DNA of 27,563 bases, taken from a virus. Numbering within the stretch: position 1 is the first letter of the stretch; every line of letters starts with the position of its first letter. Made by a program: the position numbers and the translations under genes. Below the pieces are notes generated by a model that saw only the letters and a list, made by a program, of their open reading frames with translations, did no database searches and was not told where the DNA came from. The stretch spans positions 1 through 27,563 of the IMG/VR virus record IMGVR_UViG_3300025141_008953; one strand, written 5' to 3'. This document shows positions 16,097 through 27,563 of this stretch, piece after piece.

Positions 16097-16136
16097 GCAG
16101 GCATGATGGTAGCCAATGCGCTGCCATCATGCCTGC
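16097..16136. terminator. Convergent hairpin terminator between rightward and leftward operons
   Basis: A 13-bp perfect inverted repeat, GCAGGCATGATGG (16097-16109) and CCATCATGCCTGC (16124-16136), with a 14-base loop lies in the only gap between convergent genes. The stem is G+C-rich enough to be stable in RNA from either strand. Neither side has a long T-run; the leftward transcript continues with TCTGTTGTTAG, which is the better one. It probably stops both operons, but the lack of a clean T-tract leaves the mechanism open. Confidence 0.7.
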
Positions 16137-16138
16137 CT

Positions 16139-16158
16139 GGGCTAGTCTGGGCTAGTCT
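16139..16158. repeat. Tandem 10-bp direct repeat
   Basis: GGGCTAGTCT occurs twice in tandem (16139-16148 and 16149-16158), straight after the terminator hairpin. The second copy covers the stop codon region of the leftward ribbon-helix-helix gene. It may be a simple slip duplication; I see no function. Confidence 0.6.
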
Positions 16159-16334
16159 GCTGGATTGCCCAGTAGTGCCTCTAGTTGCCGTCTGAGTGCG
16201 TTGTCTGGCGTTGGTGCCGTGGTTGCGCGTTGTCGGATATACGCAGACACAGAGAGGCCAGCAGCAGCAGCGTTGCTTCTGATGGTCTCTGCCTCGTTTG
16301 CGCTTACTCGGATCAGTATGCTCTGGTCTCTCAT
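16152..16334 (-). CDS. Ribbon-helix-helix protein
   Basis: This 60-residue protein contains SILIRVSANEAETIRSNAAA then GLSVSAYIRQRA, the classic strand-helix-helix pattern of Arc/MetJ-type and MobC-like DNA-binding proteins. The strand (ILIRVS) would insert into the major groove as a dimer. ATG16334 is chosen because it overlaps the stop of the small gene at 16331 (ATGA); an upstream in-frame ATG at 16349 would add five residues. It is the last gene of the leftward operon and may act as an operon repressor. No relaxase is visible, so a plasmid-mobilisation role is not supported. Confidence 0.75.
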   Translation of the reverse strand: MRDQSILIRVSANEAETIRSNAAAAGLSVSAYIRQRATTAPTPDNALRRQLEALLGNPAD

Positions 16335-16453
16335 GGTATGACTATCCATCCAGCCAAGATGCCGATGGCGACCACCATGGCAACGATGGCATTGATGGCC
16401 ATGCCTGCTGCCCAGTTAGATGCTGCTCTTGATGCTCTGCTTGTGTATCTCAT
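16331..16453 (-). CDS. Tiny single-span membrane protein (40 aa)
   Basis: This short frame encodes a basic N-terminus (MRYTSRASRAASNWAA) followed by one hydrophobic span (MAINAIVAMVVAIGILAGW) and four final residues. Its ATG overlaps the stop of the upstream gene (ATGA) and its stop overlaps the ATG of the RHH gene (ATGA), so it is coupled on both sides. The positive-inside rule suggests the N-terminus is cytoplasmic. The function is unknown; it is one of four such micro-membrane genes in this operon. Confidence 0.7.
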   Translation of the reverse strand: MRYTSRASRAASNWAAGMAINAIVAMVVAIGILAGWIVIP

Positions 16454-16959
16454 TGTTGCTCCATAGTTGATTGGTTGATGGTTGCAATCTCTTCAGCACT
16501 GAGTGGTGGCGCAGATCGCATCTTGGTCAGTGTTGGCAGTATCTCGTTGAATGAATCCATGACAGCATATGGATATTCACATGGTTGTGAGGGTTCAAAT
16601 ATCCACTTGCGGTCAGTTGCTTCCATATAGACAAAGCCCATGCCAAGATGACCACCATCATGCAATACATCGTACATCCATTCACCACCAGATGTGTCAC
16701 TGGCGCGACTTAAATACAGTGCAGACTTTGGCTTCATCGCTTCCTGTCTTGCGCAGTAGCAATCTCCACACAGGTATTCTGTGTAGCCATGTGGCTTGTC
16801 ATCACCACAGAAGTCATCAACTGGCACCAGTTCTTTGCAATCCTCACATGGTAAATCGTCGGTTGTGCTGACACAATCGGCCAAAGCATCAACGGTTGCA
16901 AGTATGCTGCCTGTATCAGTAGTTGCATTTAGTCTCTTTTGAATCTCAATCAGTGTCAT
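16450..16959 (-). CDS. Protein with zinc-ribbon-like Cys pairs, unknown function
   Basis: With ATG16959 this is a 169-residue protein. Cys pairs CEDC (about residues 38-41) and CGDC (about 63-66), with further Cys between and after, suggest a zinc ribbon. A C-terminal part with WMYDVLHDGGHLGMGFVYME and WIFEPSQPCEYPYAVMDSF is unrecognised. The start is supported by AAAGGACAAAAGACA immediately upstream, a leader shared in form with the genes starting at 17141 and 17492. A longer frame to 17097 would run across the neighbour at 16977 and is rejected. The end overlaps the next ATG. Confidence 0.65.
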   Translation of the reverse strand: MTLIEIQKRLNATTDTGSILATVDALADCVSTTDDLPCEDCKELVPVDDFCGDDKPHGYTEYLCGDCYCARQEAMKPKSALYLSRASDTSGGEWMYDVLHDGGHLGMGFVYMEATDRKWIFEPSQPCEYPYAVMDSFNEILPTLTKMRSAPPLSAEEIATINQSTMEQQ

Positions 16960-16976
16960 TGTCTTTTGTCCTTTGT

Positions 16977-17141
16977 TTAATACCAGTTGTATTTGATTTG
17001 TGGTTCTGGCGTATACTCGCGCAGTTCTGGGTCTTCTGTGCCGCAATACTCGCAGGTGTGAATGCCATCTTGCAAGAGGCTTTGCGCCAAGCAGCAAGCG
17101 GTTCTGATTTGGATGATTTTGGTGGTCGTTGTCTTGGTCAT
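16977..17141 (-). CDS. Small CxxC-motif protein
   Basis: This 54-residue frame starts MTKTTTTKIIQIRTACCLAQ and carries HTCEYCGTEDPELREYTPEP, one zinc-type Cys pair. ATG17141 follows AAAGGACACACA, matching the leader of the neighbouring genes; an upstream ATG at 17174 lacks this. It may bind zinc as a dimer or with a partner; no family is recognised. It is separated by 17 bases from the next gene. Confidence 0.6.
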   Translation of the reverse strand: MTKTTTTKIIQIRTACCLAQSLLQDGIHTCEYCGTEDPELREYTPEPQIKYNWY

Positions 17142-17179
17142 TGTGTGTCCTTTGTCATGGATGTCTGCCATCATCAGGC

Positions 17180-17216
17180 CACTGGAAACACCCAGTGACG
17201 ACGCCCCGTAGGGCGT
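17180..17216 (-). ncRNA. Paired RNA hairpins in an operon gap, one with a UACG tetraloop
   Basis: Two perfect 6-bp stems lie side by side. On the leftward RNA the first is ACGCCC-UACG-GGGCGU (17216 down to 17201), whose cUACGg loop is of the very stable UNCG class. The second is CACUGG-GUGUUU-CCAGUG (17197 down to 17180). The UNCG loop appears only on the leftward strand, the strand being transcribed here. No T-tract follows, so a plain intrinsic terminator is unlikely; a stability, processing or regulatory structure is more plausible. Confidence 0.55.
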
Positions 17217-17222
17217 TTCGGC

Positions 17223-17492
17223 TTATAGTTTGATCGCGTTCATCTGGTCGCGGAGTGTTGTGAACTGCTGTGGCGATAGGAGAACAGAGAGATTCCCTAA
17301 CTCTAGGGACAAAAAAGGCGCTATCTGCTCTCTACAGTCTACAATTTCTGTCCTGATATCCTCACGACTAAAGTGCGCATAAACTTGTTCGTGCCGTTTG
17401 CCCTCGAACTCCCCGTACTGATTAAGGCGTATAGCCTCAGTGATTTTGATGATGTTCAGTCTGTCGGTTGTGTTTGCCGGAATGGTTGTCAT
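17223..17492 (-). CDS. Hypothetical protein (89 aa)
   Basis: This soluble, helical protein starts MTTIPANTTDRLNIIKITEA and contains YAHFSREDIRTEIVDCREQI and LSPQQFTTLRDQMNAIKL. I do not recognise a family. ATG17492 is chosen because AGAGGACAAAGACA precedes it, nearly the same leader as the genes at 16959 and 17141; a longer TTG or ATG-started frame reaches 17552. It is followed by the double-hairpin gap. Confidence 0.6.
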   Translation of the reverse strand: MTTIPANTTDRLNIIKITEAIRLNQYGEFEGKRHEQVYAHFSREDIRTEIVDCREQIAPFLSLELGNLSVLLSPQQFTTLRDQMNAIKL

Positions 17493-17560
17493 TGTCTTTG
17501 TCCTCTGTTGTGGTCGGCAACATCGCCAACCATGAGGACAGTGTATATACATTCACACAT
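17489..17560 (-). CDS. Possible tiny upstream peptide (23 aa)
   Basis: A 23-codon frame (MCECIYTVLMVGDVADHNRG and three more) ends in a TGA that overlaps the ATG of the 89-residue gene as ATGA. The overlap hints at coupling, but no ribosome site is visible in front of its ATG and the sequence is short. It could be a leader peptide or chance. Confidence 0.25.
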   Translation of the reverse strand: MCECIYTVLMVGDVADHNRGQRQ

Positions 17561-17591
17561 GGTGTCTATACTTTTGTTTCAACCAGACACC
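17561..17591. promoter_or_regulatory. Seven-base inverted repeat in the leftward operon
   Basis: GGTGTCT (17561-17567) and AGACACC (17585-17591) form a perfect inverted repeat with a 17-base spacer. The spacer carries CTTTTGTTTC on the plus strand. It lies in the 126-base gap before the 89-residue gene, beside a TATATAC run at 17545-17551. It could be an operator or an RNA hairpin. I found no convincing -35/-10 pair around it. Confidence 0.35.
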
Positions 17592-17618
17592 GATTGGCTA
17601 TGCGTGCAGCGTTTATTT

Positions 17619-17723
17619 CTAAAGCGCAATGAGTATGGTGTAACTGGTGAGTGTCGCAATCACTGATCCATAGATGATGCCCACGATGACACCAAGCTGG
17701 AATGCTCCGAGCTTGCGCCACAT
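17619..17723 (-). CDS. Tiny single-span membrane protein (34 aa)
   Basis: This frame encodes MWRKLGAFQLGVIVGIIYGS followed by VIATLTSYTILIAL. It has two basic residues at the start and then an almost unbroken hydrophobic stretch, a typical micro-membrane protein with a cytoplasmic N-terminus. Its ATG shares one base with the upstream stop (TGATG), so translation is probably coupled. An alternative 93-codon frame across the same bases looks like a shadow. Function unknown. Confidence 0.65.
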   Translation of the reverse strand: MWRKLGAFQLGVIVGIIYGSVIATLTSYTILIAL

Positions 17724-17959
17724 CAACCATCACCATCATCATCGGCATCTGCCTGGTCGTGGTGTGGCCACCACATTGGCTCATCGACATCGTCAACAGG
17801 TCTGTTGGCGTGGACCGAATAGCAGACTGGGTCAAAGTCAAGCGCAATGCAGTCTGCCATGGTGATGAAGCCCCAGCTCAAGACTTCAATGAATACCGAC
17901 AGTGAGACCACGATGGCCAAGTTGACACATGTCCATATGATCAGATCCTCAATCCCCAA
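17723..17959 (-). CDS. Small membrane protein with acidic His/Asp tail (78 aa)
   Basis: The start is TTG17959, chosen because a full GGAGGTGA site lies directly upstream at ideal spacing. Residues about 5-28 (DLIIWTCVNLAIVVSLSVFI) form one membrane span. The tail is acidic and ends in WWPHHDQADADDDGDG, a His/Asp cluster that might bind metal ions. The protein is unrecognised. It leads the pair with the 34-residue membrane protein (TGATG overlap). Confidence 0.65.
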   Translation of the reverse strand: MGIEDLIIWTCVNLAIVVSLSVFIEVLSWGFITMADCIALDFDPVCYSVHANRPVDDVDEPMWWPHHDQADADDDGDG

Positions 17960-20653: not shown

Positions 20654-21462
20654 AGGCACTGGACATCATGCGGCGCATCAGAGATGCTGGCACATCCATC
20701 ACACCAACTGAGCGACTGGTCTTGATGGCACTGGTGTTGAGGGTAGACAGCAAGACACTGAGGTGCGGCAAGTACGCACCATCACTGGGTACACTGGGAG
20801 ATGATACGGCACTCCACAGACGCACAGTCATGCGTGCTCTGGTCAGGCTTGAGGGCAAGCACATCATCACCATATACCGAGGCGGCAAGGGCAGACAGAA
20901 TGACTATCAGATCCATCCACAGCAACTGAGCCATCACCAGAGATTGACAGTGGTGAGTGGTGGCACAGAGTCACCCAGTGGGGGCACAGAGTCACAGGGG
21001 GTGGGGGCACAGAGTCACCCAACTGGTGGCACAGAGTCACCCTATCTGCACTCTGCATATATCTATAACAAAGACCAACCACAACAGGGTGATGCGTCTG
21101 GTTCTAAAACGGAACCAGCCACACACCAGATACCAGATGGGGAGTTGTTGTTTCTGATGCTCGATGGCGGCATCAACAAGATTGACAAGCGATACAAGAG
21201 CAAGGCCAAGACCATCAAGCCAGAGCAACTGCCAGCAATGATTGTGGTGGCAGCATACCGGCGCACCATCGCACTATGCAAGGCCAAGACCACACCACCA
21301 GTGGATGACCAGGGCACTCGGTTGTGGTGGCTCCATGAGGACAGGAACATCAGTACCATCATGGAGAGGGCACTGGCAGCATCTGGTGGCTACGACAAGG
21401 CACACAACGGCAGACTGGACATCATTGGCTATGGTCATGTCATCAAGGGGGCAGGGTGTTGA
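20650..21462 (+). CDS. Replication initiator/organiser protein with internal iterons
   Basis: This 270-residue protein has a winged-helix domain at about residues 15-90 (TPTERLVLMALVLRVDSKTL, LGDDTALHRRTVMRALVRLE and YRGGKGRQNDYQI), the pattern of phage replisome organisers. A low-complexity linker follows (about 102-131) with GGTES repeats, then a C-terminal helical domain (IKPEQLPAMIVVAAYRRTIA) that may bind helicase. The linker is encoded by four 13-base repeats that look like an origin, as in lambda O. It overlaps neighbours by ATGA and TGATG and lies upstream of the DnaB-type helicase and SSB genes. Confidence 0.8.
   Translation: MKALDIMRRIRDAGTSITPTERLVLMALVLRVDSKTLRCGKYAPSLGTLGDDTALHRRTVMRALVRLEGKHIITIYRGGKGRQNDYQIHPQQLSHHQRLTVVSGGTESPSGGTESQGVGAQSHPTGGTESPYLHSAYIYNKDQPQQGDASGSKTEPATHQIPDGELLFLMLDGGINKIDKRYKSKAKTIKPEQLPAMIVVAAYRRTIALCKAKTTPPVDDQGTRLWWLHEDRNISTIMERALAASGGYDKAHNGRLDIIGYGHVIKGAGC
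20962..21040. repeat. Four iteron-like repeats, candidate replication origin
   Basis: GGCACAGAGTCAC occurs exactly four times at 20962-20974, 20983-20995, 21006-21018 and 21028-21040. The repeat spacing is 21, 23 and 22 bases, about two DNA turns, so sites face the same side. An AT-rich stretch (about 21056-21073) follows and could be the unwinding element. Copy 3 is out of frame with the others, so the protein reads VGAQSH there instead of GGTES; this suggests that the DNA, not the peptide, is being kept. Confidence 0.75.
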
Positions 21463-21902
21463 TGATAGTGCCAATCAAACAGGCAGAGGCAAAGGCATTT
21501 GTGGCGCAGCATCACAGGCACTTGAAACCATCGGTTGGCTCAGTGTTCCAAGTGGCAGTGGCTTGCACAGAGAAGGAGTGCATTGTTGGTGTGGCGATGG
21601 TTGGCAGGCCAGTGGCTCGCAGATTAGATGACAGTTGGACATTGGAGGTCAACAGATCGGCCACTGATGGGACATTCAACGCTAACTCCATGTTGTATGG
21701 CGCAGCTTGGCGAGTGGCAAAGGCACTAGGATACCGCAAGCTCATCACATACACTCTGCCAGAGGAGTCTGGTGCATCTCTGCGTGGTGCAGGCTGGACA
21801 TGTATTGGTGAGAAGTTTGGTGGCAAGTCATGGAGCGTGCCAAGCAGACCAAGAGTCAACACCACACCATCACAACTCAAACTGCGATGGGAGAGAGAAT
21901 GA
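21462..21902 (+). CDS. XF1762-type phage protein (GNAT-like)
   Basis: This 146-residue protein matches the XF1762 family by its layout: AFVAQHHRHLKPSVGSVFQV near the N-terminus, IVGVAMVGRPVARRLDDSWT, LEVNRSATDGTFNANSMLYG, LGYRKLITYTLPEESGASLR, and a C-terminal GGKSWSVPSRPRV. The order of strands and helices resembles an N-acetyltransferase fold, but no acyl-CoA role has been shown that I can cite. It overlaps the initiator (TGATG) and the following methyltransferase (ATGA). The start ATG21462 is preferred over GTG21456. Confidence 0.8.
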   Translation: MIVPIKQAEAKAFVAQHHRHLKPSVGSVFQVAVACTEKECIVGVAMVGRPVARRLDDSWTLEVNRSATDGTFNANSMLYGAAWRVAKALGYRKLITYTLPEESGASLRGAGWTCIGEKFGGKSWSVPSRPRVNTTPSQLKLRWERE

Positions 21903-22429
21903 GACTTGCCTATGCCGATCCACCATACCCACGGCAGGCGCGTCGATTCTACAAAGACGATCCAAACTGCGCAGAGGTGGATCACAAGGCATTGATTGAG
22001 ATGCTGGCAGACACATATGATGGTTGGGCATTGTCATCATCAGCAGATCTTCAGTCGATGCAATACATCGTGCCGCTATTGCCAGAGGGCACCAGAGTGT
22101 GTGCGTGGGTCAAGCCATTTGCAAGCTACAAGCCCAATGTGACACTGGCATATGCGTGGGAGCCAATATACATCAAGCCAGCACGCAAGCGACCGAGATC
22201 AGAGAAGACAATGAAAGACTGGGTCGCTGCCAACATCACACTGCGCAAAGGGTTGGCAGGCGCTAAACCATGGACAGTGTGTGATTGGCTCTTTGATGCA
22301 CTAGGCGCAGAGCGCGATGACGAGCTTGACGATCTTTATCCGGGCACAGGCATCGTCACAGAGCGGTGGCAGGTGTTCACAAAGCAGGCAACGCAGATCG
22401 ATCTGCTCAAGCTGATGGAGGCACGATGA
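21899..22429 (+). CDS. DPPY-type adenine DNA methyltransferase (MT-A70-like)
   Basis: This 176-residue protein starts MRLAYADPPYPRQARRF, with the catalytic-type DPPY motif at residues 7-10. DDLYPGTGIV near residues 144-153 probably serves as the SAM-binding or terminal motif seen in short phage adenine methyltransferases. It is compact, with no separate recognition domain, so it may need a partner for specificity. Likely job: N6-adenine methylation of phage DNA against host restriction. Its ATG overlaps the upstream stop and its end overlaps the C5-methyltransferase remnant (ATGA). Confidence 0.75.
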   Translation: MRLAYADPPYPRQARRFYKDDPNCAEVDHKALIEMLADTYDGWALSSSADLQSMQYIVPLLPEGTRVCAWVKPFASYKPNVTLAYAWEPIYIKPARKRPRSEKTMKDWVAANITLRKGLAGAKPWTVCDWLFDALGAERDDELDDLYPGTGIVTERWQVFTKQATQIDLLKLMEAR

Positions 22430-24139: not shown

Positions 24140-24341
24140 CACCAAAGAGATGAGAAACAGAATCAAGATGCAGCGTGAGCTGGGCACTGGGAAGTATGCC
24201 TACAGGCAGGTCATGGGTCTCACCATCATTGCCCACAAGCTATGTGAGGAGGTCGACAGGCTCAATGGTGAGGTTGAGGCAGAGCGACTGGCAGCAAAGA
24301 CAGCCAACGAGGCACTACTGGCAATCAAGGATGTCATCTGA
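24129..24341 (+). CDS. Small coiled-coil protein before the helicase
   Basis: This 70-residue protein starts MPIDTKEMRNRIKMQRELGT and has a charged C-terminal helix (LCEEVDRLNGEVEAERLAAK) likely to form a coiled coil. GAGGGTCCACC precedes its ATG. It overlaps the triple winged-helix gene by 11 bases and the helicase by one base (TGATG). It could be a helicase-loading or primase-linked accessory, but I see no motif. Confidence 0.65.
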   Translation: MPIDTKEMRNRIKMQRELGTGKYAYRQVMGLTIIAHKLCEEVDRLNGEVEAERLAAKTANEALLAIKDVI

Positions 24342-25660
24342 TGATGGACTTGCCACAGGTGCCAAGGCTGGAGAGGATACTGCTGGCGTCATTGGTCAAG
24401 CATCCAGACAGGTGGGCAGACTTGAATCAGTTAGTCAAGCCGTCAGACATGGGTGATGATGCCAACAGGCAACTGTATGAGTTACTTGAGGACATGGTCA
24501 GCAACGATGTCCCAATTGACTTGGTGACCGTCACAGGCAGACTGCAAGGCAAAGACACAGAGCAACTGCTGTGCCTGGTCTCAGACTACTCTGATACGCC
24601 ACCAGCATCATCACTGCGCTACTATGCCAGACAGATTAGGACAGTGGCAGCAGCGCGTGATCTGTATCTTGGTGCGCGGCAGTCGGTGCAGGATCTGGGC
24701 AAGCATCCAGCAGAGCAGATTGATGCGGCACTTGAGACCATCAGAGAGACACTTGATATTGCCGCTGGCAGGCTCAGACGAGGCGAGACCAACGGACCAG
24801 AGCAGGTCACAGAGTATCTGCCACGACTGCTGGCAGAGATGGAGTCAAGGCCAACAGCACCAGACAGACGAGTGTGGTCTGGATTCAAGTCATTGGATCT
24901 GCTGCTTGAGGGATGGCAACCGGGGCATCTGGTGCTGCTCGCATCAAGACCAGCGATGGGTAAGAGTTCACTGGCACTCAACATTGCAGACCACAACGCC
25001 AGTGCTGGTGTGCCCACGATGTTCATATCATTGGAGATGACCAGAGCAGAGTTGACCACCAGACTGCTGGCAGCGAGGTCACCATTGACACTGTCTGAGC
25101 TTCGCAATCGCAATCTGACACCAGAGCAATGGGAGCATATCGAGGAGACATCTGAGCGGTTGCACATCACTGCGCTGCCACTATTCATCGAGGACAGACC
25201 AGCACTGATCCTGTCAGAGTTGATGGTGGAGGTCAAGAGACTGGTTGACACTGCTGGTGTGCGTCTGGTCGTGATTGATTACATCCAGCTCATCAGATTG
25301 GGTGGCAGGCAGCAGGACAGGTATCAAGAGGTCACAGAGGTCAGCAGAGCACTCAAGATCGCTGCCATGGAGATGGGGATCACCATCGTGGCACTGGCAC
25401 AACTCAACAGAGGTCTGGAGGCACGCAGAGATAAGAGACCAGGTCTGGCAGACTTGCGTGAGTCTGGGTCACTTGAGCAGGATGCAGACAGTGTTATGAT
25501 GCTCTACAGAGACAGCATATACAACGACACAACACCAGAGGTGGAGGCAGAGATCATCATCAGGAAGAACAGACATGGCAGGACAGGCACAGCGCATCTG
25601 GACTGGCATGGGTCGCACACTTTATTCACAGAACCAACAGAGGACAGATTCAATGCTTAA
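24341..25660 (+). CDS. dnaB: DnaB-type replicative helicase
   Basis: This 439-residue protein unwinds DNA at the phage fork. The N-terminal domain (about 1-105) fits DnaB-N (RLERILLASLVKHPDRWADL). The RecA-like core has Walker A SRPAMGKSS (202-210), FISLEM (228-233), Walker B LVVIDY (309-314), sensor LAQLNR (352-357) and the DLRESGSLEQDAD motif (371-383) typical of the family. Its length is near normal. It overlaps SSB by 8 bases, so both are co-expressed. No primase gene is visible, so host primase is likely used. Confidence 0.93.
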   Translation: MMDLPQVPRLERILLASLVKHPDRWADLNQLVKPSDMGDDANRQLYELLEDMVSNDVPIDLVTVTGRLQGKDTEQLLCLVSDYSDTPPASSLRYYARQIRTVAAARDLYLGARQSVQDLGKHPAEQIDAALETIRETLDIAAGRLRRGETNGPEQVTEYLPRLLAEMESRPTAPDRRVWSGFKSLDLLLEGWQPGHLVLLASRPAMGKSSLALNIADHNASAGVPTMFISLEMTRAELTTRLLAARSPLTLSELRNRNLTPEQWEHIEETSERLHITALPLFIEDRPALILSELMVEVKRLVDTAGVRLVVIDYIQLIRLGGRQQDRYQEVTEVSRALKIAAMEMGITIVALAQLNRGLEARRDKRPGLADLRESGSLEQDADSVMMLYRDSIYNDTTPEVEAEIIIRKNRHGRTGTAHLDWHGSHTLFTEPTEDRFNA

Positions 25661-26030
25661 CAAGGTACAACTCATCGGCAATCTGGGCAATGACCCAGAG
25701 ACAAAGACAACACCATCAGGCACCACAGTGGGCAAGCTGTCAGTGGCTACCAGCCATCGCAGCAAGGTCAATGGTGAGTGGCAAGACCAGACAGAGTGGC
25801 ATCGTGTGGTGGTGTTCAACCAACTTGCAGAGACATGCCAGAAGTATCTGACCAAGGGGCGCAAGTGCTATGTTGAGGGGCGCATCCAGACCAGACAGTG
25901 GCAGACTGATGACGGCACAACGCGATATATGACTGAGATCATAGGTGATCGCGTGCTGTTCCTGAGTTCAAAGGGCAGCGATAGGGAGGGCAGCTACACT
26001 CAGCAGGCAGATGATGACATCCCCTTTTAG
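25653..26030 (+). CDS. ssb: Single-stranded DNA-binding protein
   Basis: This 125-residue protein has the OB-fold pattern MLNKVQLIGNLGNDPETKTT, WHRVVVFNQLAETCQKYLTK and YVEGRIQTRQWQTDDGTTRY, then a short linker and the acidic tip ADDDIPF. The DDDIPF ending is the classic SSB tail for partner recruitment. It starts inside the helicase 3' end with AGAGGA about 7 bases upstream. It would coat exposed strands for replication and ERF-driven annealing. Confidence 0.95.
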   Translation: MLNKVQLIGNLGNDPETKTTPSGTTVGKLSVATSHRSKVNGEWQDQTEWHRVVVFNQLAETCQKYLTKGRKCYVEGRIQTRQWQTDDGTTRYMTEIIGDRVLFLSSKGSDREGSYTQQADDDIPF

Positions 26031-26103
26031 CAACCACGATGCCGTGATGGACTTGCGATACCAGGCAGCGGTCTGGCGGCACTCACAGTACAAGAGGAGG
26101 TAG
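26011..26103 (+). CDS. Possible 30-residue peptide overlapping ssb
   Basis: A 30-codon frame starts in the last 20 bases of ssb and encodes MMTSPFSNHDAVMDLRYQAA then VWRHSQYKRR. It ends just before the methyltransferase remnant, and its stop region provides that gene's GAGGAGG site. The coupling pattern suits a real small gene, but there is no independent support. Confidence 0.45.
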   Translation: MMTSPFSNHDAVMDLRYQAAVWRHSQYKRR

Positions 26104-26104
26104 C

Positions 26105-26185
26105 ATGGCGGGCACGACCATGATCCAAGGTGACTGCATAGAACATATGAGGCAGATGCCAGATGGCAGCATTGAAGCGGGGTGA
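26105..26185 (+). pseudogene. Truncated N-terminus of a displaced DNA methyltransferase
   Basis: ATG26105 has a perfect GAGGAGG site 4-11 bases upstream and codes for MAGTTMIQGDCIEHMRQMPD then GSIEAG before a TGA. IQGDCIEHMRQMPDGS is the usual N-terminal strand-helix-strand of beta-class methyltransferases (GDCLEVMR.MPDGS). It stops just before motif IV, and a different methyltransferase of foreign composition starts 5 bases later. The piece therefore looks like what is left of the native gene after replacement. Confidence 0.75.
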
Positions 26186-26189
26186 AGTG

Positions 26190-26978
26190 ATGAAGTCTGA
26201 AATAATACATGGGGATGCCCGCGCCGTTTTGGGGACATTAGAGGACAGCACAATTCATTTAACGATCACTTCACCCCCCTACTATAACGCGCGCCCATAT
26301 TCACATTGGGAAAGCTACAAAGAGTATTTGAAATTTCTTGAGGAAGTATTCACGGAAGTCTATAGGGTGACAAAGCAGGGGAGAATGTGTGTTGTCAATC
26401 TTTCACCGGTGATCGTCCCAAGAGAAAAACGAAGTTGTGAAAGCACGAGGTTGCCCATTCCTTTTGACTTTTTTCCTATTATGCAAAAAATGGGTTGGAA
26501 ATACTTAGACGATATTATTTGGTCCAAACCTGAAGGGTCAGCGGCTAACAGAAACGGTAAGTTTTTCCAACACAGAAAGCCTGTGGCATACAAGCCTAAT
26601 GTCGTCACTGAAGTTATTTTTGTGTTCCAAAAGCCCGCCCCATTTTTGATCGATAAGGTCTTGAAATCATATGATAAAGAAATCATATCACGCTCTTTGG
26701 TGGCTTCACCGTATGAGAGAAGCAACTTATGGAAAATCAATCCCGCAACAAAGTCCAAACATCCGGCTGTGTTTCCAAGAGCCTTATCTGATAAGATCAT
26801 CACCTATTATTCATTTGTTGGTGACAAAGTGCTTGACCCGTTCTTGGGATCTGGAACAACTCTAATGTCTTGTAAAGTGTTAGCAAGAGAGGGTATTGGG
26901 TGCGATATTCACAAAGAATATTGTGAGCTGGCAAAGAATAGGCTGGCCCAAATGCCGCTATTCATGGAGGCAAGATGA
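26190..26978 (+). CDS. DNA methyltransferase (beta class, N4-cytosine or N6-adenine), AT-rich foreign gene
   Basis: This 262-residue enzyme has motif IV TSPPYYN (27-33) before motif I VLDPFLGSGTTL (214-225), the beta-class order. SPPY is most common in N4-cytosine methyltransferases but also occurs in N6-adenine ones. A GGGGTGA site precedes ATG26190; ATG26163 in the same frame is an alternative. From about 26195 to 26950 the DNA is clearly richer in A and T, with many TTT, AAA and ATT codons that neighbours avoid, so it was probably acquired recently. The last residues (MPLFMEAR) are back in native style. It likely protects phage DNA from restriction; no endonuclease partner is seen. Confidence 0.88.
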   Translation: MKSEIIHGDARAVLGTLEDSTIHLTITSPPYYNARPYSHWESYKEYLKFLEEVFTEVYRVTKQGRMCVVNLSPVIVPREKRSCESTRLPIPFDFFPIMQKMGWKYLDDIIWSKPEGSAANRNGKFFQHRKPVAYKPNVVTEVIFVFQKPAPFLIDKVLKSYDKEIISRSLVASPYERSNLWKINPATKSKHPAVFPRALSDKIITYYSFVGDKVLDPFLGSGTTLMSCKVLAREGIGCDIHKEYCELAKNRLAQMPLFMEAR

Positions 26979-27499
26979 TGATCATCGGTATAGATCCGGG
27001 ATACCAAGCAGGGGCAGCAGTGATGATGGTGGACGGTCGAGCAGTCTGCTGCTGGCGTTGGAGCATTCGCAGGCGGGTCTCAGGTCCGATCTGGGTGCTC
27101 ACCACTGCCAGCGGTTCACAGCGCGAGGTTAGGTCACTCACTATGATTGGTGAGGACATCAGGCAGGCCATCAATGGTGCTGAGTTCGTGCTGGTGGTGG
27201 AGGACTTGTTTGGTAAGGGCAGAACACTGCAACGGCTTGCAGAGTCTGCTGGTGAGGTCATGGGACCACTCAGGGCATCAGCGTTCGGTATACCACTGAG
27301 ACCAGGCGCAAGCACATGGCGTCCACAGGTGCTAGGCATATCGCCACGCACCAAGGCAGATGAGGCAGAGGCAGCAGCAGTGAAGTGGGCACAGCGCATC
27401 GCAGGTCTCGATGAGTTGGCCAGTTGTGGCCATACTTGCGAGGCAGCATGCATCGCATCATGGGGCGCAGAGAGGGTGTCACACATTGACACCATTTAA
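26975..27499 (+). CDS. RuvC-like Holliday junction resolvase
   Basis: This 174-residue protein starts with the RNase H-type motif GIDPG (residues 5-9, D7 catalytic), followed by VVEDLFGKGRTLQRLAESAG (74-93, E76 catalytic), KADEAEAAAVKW (127-138) and HTCEAACIASWG (153-164), whose H153 and E156 match the last RuvC motif. It probably cuts branched DNA before packaging. It overlaps the methyltransferase gene (ATGA). It is the last gene of the window, immediately before the terminase genes if the ends join. Confidence 0.88.
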   Translation: MMIIGIDPGYQAGAAVMMVDGRAVCCWRWSIRRRVSGPIWVLTTASGSQREVRSLTMIGEDIRQAINGAEFVLVVEDLFGKGRTLQRLAESAGEVMGPLRASAFGIPLRPGASTWRPQVLGISPRTKADEAEAAAVKWAQRIAGLDELASCGHTCEAACIASWGAERVSHIDTI

Positions 27500-27563
27500 T
27501 GACCAGCGCAAAATGGAGGTTCGACCGTGTGTTTTTGGCTTGACCATCCCTCGGTCTCTTGCC
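27500..27563. other. Right-end noncoding region
   Basis: After the resolvase stop there are 64 bases without a credible gene. A 14-codon frame (27499-27543) is too short to support. The last eight bases, CTCTTGCC, repeat the first eight of the window. GACC/GGTC (27542-27545 and 27552-27555) could make a short stem. Together with 1-105 this would form a 160-170 base gap before the terminase genes. Confidence 0.4.

Follow-up and report, generated by a model that had tools for sequence, protein, structure and literature searches.

A likely replacement of a native DNA methyltransferase by a foreign one at a phage locus

How does a phage come to carry a strong ribosome site and the first codons of one methyltransferase, ended by a stop, and directly behind them a complete methyltransferase of very different base composition? 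The question is raised by a locus in a 27,563-base virus record (IMGVR_UViG_3300025141_008953), analyzed over its whole length and indicated below as the window; the phage is presumably marine, judging from the sample numbers of near-identical contigs. The preliminary description of this DNA read the locus as the swap of a methyltransferase for another of different specificity, at a fixed slot.

Layout and composition of the locus

All features of the locus lie on the plus strand. The locus is flanked by native genes: a DnaB-like replicative helicase (24341..25660; PF03796, E=4e-82) and the single-strand binding protein, SSB (25653..26030; PF00436, E=4e-35) on one side, a RuvC-like Holliday junction resolvase (26975..27499; phrog_1770, E=3e-6) on the other. 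Between them, the strong Shine-Dalgarno sequence AGAGGAGG (26093..26100), mostly unpaired in the predicted fold, precedes the ATG of a 26-codon ORF, MAGTTMIQGDCIEHMRQMPDGSIEAG, closed by a stop (26105..26185). This ORF, indicated as the stub, corresponds to the N-terminus of a beta-class methyltransferase and stops just before motif IV. Its TGA occupies positions 26183-26185; after a gap of 4 nt, the ATG at 26190 opens the newcomer, a beta-class DNA methyltransferase of 262 aa (26190..26978; PF01555), not accompanied by an endonuclease partner. The ribosome site of the RuvC-like gene, GGAGG (26966..26970), is found inside the final codons of the methyltransferase, and the start of the RuvC-like gene, at 26975, overlaps the methyltransferase stop (ATGA).

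The composition of the newcomer differs sharply from that of the surrounding genes: its GC content is 0.423, against 0.536 +/- 0.024 in 27 native genes (z -4.7), and its codon-usage score is also displaced (z -3.2), while GC3, compared to the same genes, gives a weaker signal (z -2.0). No 789-base window starting in 1-26000 has a GC content as low: the minimum, 0.455, belongs to a window reaching into the gene itself. In a likelihood fit on base composition, the boundaries of the AT-rich block fall at 26117-26325 on the left and at 26882-27012 on the right. Both the stub, led by its strong ribosome site, and the complete methyltransferase of deviant composition directly after it are thus as they had been described, and the proposed sliding check of GC and codon usage returns a non-uniform composition. 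The return to native style, noted near the last codons, is supported as well, mainly by the GGAGG of the next gene. A milder AT-rich patch (GC 46-49%) is present at 16097-17850, around a minus-strand ORF, with a 13-nt inverted repeat at 16097/16124, which may be a terminator.

The stub, GC 0.543, is native-like in composition. When its 21 aa MIQGDCIEHMRQMPDGSIEAG were compared to phages by tblastn, 327 records were matched (best E 5e-3), the top rows being mostly annotated methyltransferases; the reversed sequence, used as a control against the same phages, gave zero matches at E<=10, so the likeness to methyltransferase N-termini is not due to chance. Among the fetched loci, the stub aligns with the N-termini of six phage methyltransferases, just before motif IV, while it differs from the newcomer's own N-terminus. 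It looks like a remnant of a methyltransferase of the phage's own, now lost, and GDCIEHMRQMPDGS is used as the N-terminal label for this putative native enzyme of the slot. Nearly the same N-terminus is found in enzymes carrying DPPY (N6-adenine type; L037, L039 and L041) and in one carrying TSPPY (N4-cytosine type; L038): the stub is therefore silent on the base methylated by the lost enzyme. At the other loci examined no comparable stub was seen. A frameshift within a single gene was considered and ruled out: the same N-terminal region is present in both stub and newcomer.

The assignment of the newcomer to PF01555 (N6_N4_Mtase) is strong (E=7e-44, 150.8 bits against a cut-off of 26.7, profile positions 1-220 of 221), and the PADLOC Type II MTase model matches it as well (E=5e-63). 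Motif IV, TSPPY (residues 27-31; 26268..26282), precedes the SAM-binding motif I, DPFLGSGTT (residues 216-224; 26835..26861), and both are intact. A beta-class methyltransferase fold is confidently predicted: the AlphaFold model has a pLDDT of 84, and its best PDB matches are 2zie (TTHA0409) and known N4C/N6A beta-class enzymes, including PvuII and RsrI. Residues invariant in the rest of its clade, described below, are largely retained (114 out of 119), as are all 33 invariant in the whole set, indicating a gene under constraint; the newcomer looks functional. It is predicted to methylate cytosine at N4, because it belongs to a clade related to M.CfrBI; the call also follows the presence, in motif IV, of S-P-P-Y instead of D-P-P-Y, a sequence rule of thumb.

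The contig both begins (1-8) and ends (27556-27563) with CTCTTGCC, and a possible small-terminase ORF, followed by the large terminase, comes right after its start. Contigs L013 and L014, from two other assemblies, start at the exact same base. As a whole, the contig resembles a complete genome bounded by cohesive ends of 8 nt, although the record may class it as a linear fragment. At 21456-21902 and 21830-22429, a Mom-like protein of the XF1762 family (NCBIfam, E=6e-61) is found beside a DPPY-motif ORF matching no family; they are possibly a second DNA-modification unit. Several palindromes are underrepresented in the window (CTGCAG: 0 against 14.2 expected; AGATCT: 1 against 12.9; ACGT: 3 against 37), which suggests past restriction pressure on the phage.

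Relatives of the newcomer and the HNH partner

The nearest annotated relatives of the newcomer are the CfrBI-family methyltransferases of small enterobacterial plasmids (40-42% identity over about 94%), where genes for CfrBI-family endonucleases are adjacent. M.CfrBI itself belongs to a Type II restriction-modification system, directed to the site CCWWGG, and modifies cytosine at N4. In the phage, CCWWGG is neither avoided nor enriched (38 sites seen, 37.7 expected), a result compatible either with a protected site or with the absence of such an enzyme, and hence deciding nothing; at about 40% identity specificity is not readable.

Relatives closer than those in annotated plasmid records are found in viral contigs. 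A tree of 34 rows groups the newcomer with 18 other phage methyltransferases (19-row clade, support 100/98) and gives it a long branch (0.66). The search among restriction-modification genes, suggested in the preliminary description, does recover the plasmid enzymes, but the closest kin are methyltransferases paired, in phages, with an HNH-type ORF. Bacterial contigs, searched with the only two patterns yielded by the alignment, gave a single match, at 22%. The source of the newcomer was probably such a pair of another phage, rather than a bacterial restriction-modification system. A recent donor among the loci found is ruled out: the best identity is 67-70%, and GC contents are 28-37% against the 42% of the newcomer. 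With this GC content above that of the clade and with the long branch, no direct donor stands out among these loci, and the transfer may be old.

In 17 of the 19 clade rows (L001, L043-L055 and L057-L059, phage contigs of up to about 160 kb), an ORF of about 140 aa, featuring an HNH-type pattern (DLDH, NN, CKLCH), overlaps the start of the methyltransferase. A profile of this ORF, run on the 19 clade loci, indicates its absence only from the window, where zero matches were obtained, and from L056. These two loci are also the ones whose methyltransferases are the most AT-rich relative to their surroundings (0.42 in 0.54 for the window; 0.34 in 0.45-0.49 for L056). With the HNH partner missing, the phage keeps just one half, the methyltransferase, of a pair carried by phages; most simply, the methyltransferase would have been acquired on two occasions by GC-richer phages, each time without its nuclease partner.

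The pair may be either a restriction-modification system or a protected homing nuclease: the matches of the HNH profile are generic HNH and homing endonucleases, and the structure model of the HNH protein is poor (pLDDT 59). In the literature searched, no description or published name of phage HNH-methyltransferase pairs was found, although one may still exist. Two of the carriers, L054 and L057, feature a second methyltransferase-like gene after the pair. A distant pair with the same layout, overlapping by 4 nt, is found in Synechococcus phage S-CAM3 (L123, 1983-3253), where the two genes are annotated as "restriction enzyme, type II R/M system 1" and "DNA methylase". The TGATG overlap prompted the idea of a remnant of an upstream HNH gene in the joint of the window; it was dropped, as the C-termini of the HNH proteins (SARNFN) do not match and 13 nt of the joint are complementary to motif IV.

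The two joints and the origin of the arrangement

The 5' joint, GGGGTGAAGTGAT (26179..26191), contains the stub stop and the SD-like sequence of the newcomer, GGGGTGA. It is the exact reverse complement of ATCACTTCACCCC (26265..26277), located within the codons of motif IV. Across the whole window, only two 13-nt inverted repeats with arms within 120 nt are present. A 13-nt inverted repeat arises in 0.0002 of the shuffles of the 216-base region around the joint, and a repeat of at least 13 nt in 0.003 of the synonymous recodings of the newcomer start, when the joint is kept fixed; both figures are post hoc, the repeat having emerged from a general scan. In the 18 related loci no such inverted repeat was seen.

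In the predicted RNA fold containing the 13-nt stem, the SD of the newcomer has an unpaired probability of 0.00, while that of the stub is mostly open; the fold energy of the region is overall unexceptional (z -0.8 to -1.1). The predicted architecture is that of a coupled pair, with a short ORF behind a strong ribosome site, a 4-nt gap and a following SD predicted to be sequestered, which suggests that the stub acts as a coupling leader. Alternatively, the repeat could be the scar of a fold-back copy, or the outcome of chance.

At the 3' side, composition by itself cannot pinpoint the joint. The presence, within the final codons of the methyltransferase, of the GGAGG and of the overlapping ATG of the RuvC-like gene makes it most likely that its reading frame ends in native DNA. 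When the C-terminal tail of the newcomer was used as a query, no match was obtained, and the native origin of these codons rests on the ribosome-site argument.

Replacement of a native methyltransferase by a foreign gene is the likely origin of the arrangement, and that the foreign gene is now also translationally coupled to the native codons seems to us reasonably probable. According to this reading, the phage would originally have had a beta-class methyltransferase gene of its own, flanked by ssb and the ruvC-like gene. Through non-homologous recombination, the DNA of another phage, bearing an overlapping HNH-nuclease/methyltransferase pair, would have contributed to the slot the methyltransferase half (M.CfrBI-like, predicted to be N4-cytosine specific), leaving out the HNH partner. 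The first 26 native codons would have stayed in place, and native DNA, with the ruvC-like ribosome site, would have been kept at the 3' end. Ribosomes would load at the strong native site, translate the stub and terminate at 26183-26185, within a stem otherwise masking the weak ribosome site of the newcomer, to re-initiate 4 nt further on, at 26190. The newcomer would then methylate phage DNA, possibly as a shield from a cognate nuclease, encoded either by a host or by a competitor phage.

What is borne out of the preliminary description is the juxtaposition: behind the first codons of one methyltransferase comes a complete, foreign one, between operon-like joints. The proposed shift of specificity gets no backing from the stub, whose N-terminus suits DPPY and TSPPY enzymes alike, nor does an answer to host restriction from the closest kin, located in HNH pairs of other phages, or from the CCWWGG sites, which are not avoided. 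The comparison with related phages that it proposed could be made for the clade methyltransferases; no relative with an intact or empty slot was found, and the swap is read from a single genome. Searches for a relative's right arm, by way of the RuvC-like protein, SSB, DnaB, a DNA pattern of the stub and the terminase, gave none, so we infer the ancestral slot from the window.

Part of the evidence may be read otherwise. The non-homologous 5' joint, located immediately after the stub, and the complete disappearance of the native catalytic core are also expected from a simple insertion shortly after the native start codon, with the remainder of the native gene deleted later; the replacement would then be an accident in two steps, in which no new specificity was selected for. 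The stub could indeed be what is left of a native gene that decayed after such an insertion, and one genome cannot separate two steps from one; yet the newcomer fits its neighbours on either side as snugly as in an operon, which suggests selection for expression, and we regard the accident as unlikely. The strong ribosome site of the stub, its termination 4 nt ahead of the second ATG and the masked ribosome site of the downstream gene would equally suit a leader peptide, selected for coupling and derived by partial duplication of some methyltransferase start, rather than by replacement at the slot. A copy of the newcomer is argued against by the native-like GC of the stub (0.543) and by its dissimilarity to the newcomer's N-terminus; comparable stubs are moreover absent from the other loci examined, and a duplicated leader appears quite improbable.

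An assembly chimera, in which two unrelated sequences have been merged, might be suspected, as a single contig covers the locus and the near-identical L013 and L014 end before it. Against this, the 3' frame continues into native DNA with the next ribosome site and the ATGA overlap, 4 nt separate the end of the stub from the ATG of the newcomer, and the newcomer is complete: all these features would rarely come together in a random chimera, which is very hard to believe here. A more speculative version of the replacement, to which we give rather little credit, involves template switching by fold-back: the end of the native strand would have copied 13 nt from the strand opposite motif IV of the newcomer and then gone on at the newcomer's start codon, generating ribosome site and stem at once, so that translation of the newcomer would depend on the native codons. 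Its product would be an orphan methyltransferase, taken from the HNH pair of a rival phage and conferring immunity to that very pair.

Significance and comparison with known systems

Swapping of modification genes is a known means for phages to evade restriction, but the molecular scar can rarely be read. At this locus the native start appears to be kept and the partner nuclease dropped, and the joint hints both at the mechanism of joining and at the mode of expression. The conserved HNH-methyltransferase pair of large phages, with its methyltransferase half occurring unpaired in two or more GC-richer phages, raises the question whether such pairs are weapons of one phage against another, and whether the lone methyltransferase is an immunity gene.

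With the M.CfrBI family the newcomer shares 40-42% identity over about 94%, the TSPPY motif IV and the beta-class order of motifs; the first-ranking PADLOC Type II model, at 376 residues, is as long as M.CfrBI. It differs in the lack of an N-terminal region of about 110 residues and in its neighbours, which are SSB and a RuvC-like resolvase, with no gene for a cognate endonuclease as in CfrBI-type systems.

The gain of protective orphan methyltransferases by phages is already established: methyltransferase genes acquired without the cognate endonuclease have been shown to be protective against restriction (PMC4190342). Those enzymes are of the N6-adenine type and are encoded in the packaging region; in the portion of that report considered here, neither a stub of a native gene nor a coupling leader is mentioned.

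The phage HNH-methyltransferase pairs are closer: their methyltransferases are aligned to the newcomer at 60-67% identity and belong to the same clade (100/98), while in the window the HNH gene is missing and a native stub is found upstream. L056 (IMG/VR 3300025125_001103) differs from the window in its neighbourhood, being located, by eye, upstream of a terminase-like gene, and in having no stub; it shares with the window the clade, the absence of the HNH gene and an AT-rich methyltransferase (34%) in a contig of higher GC (45-49%).
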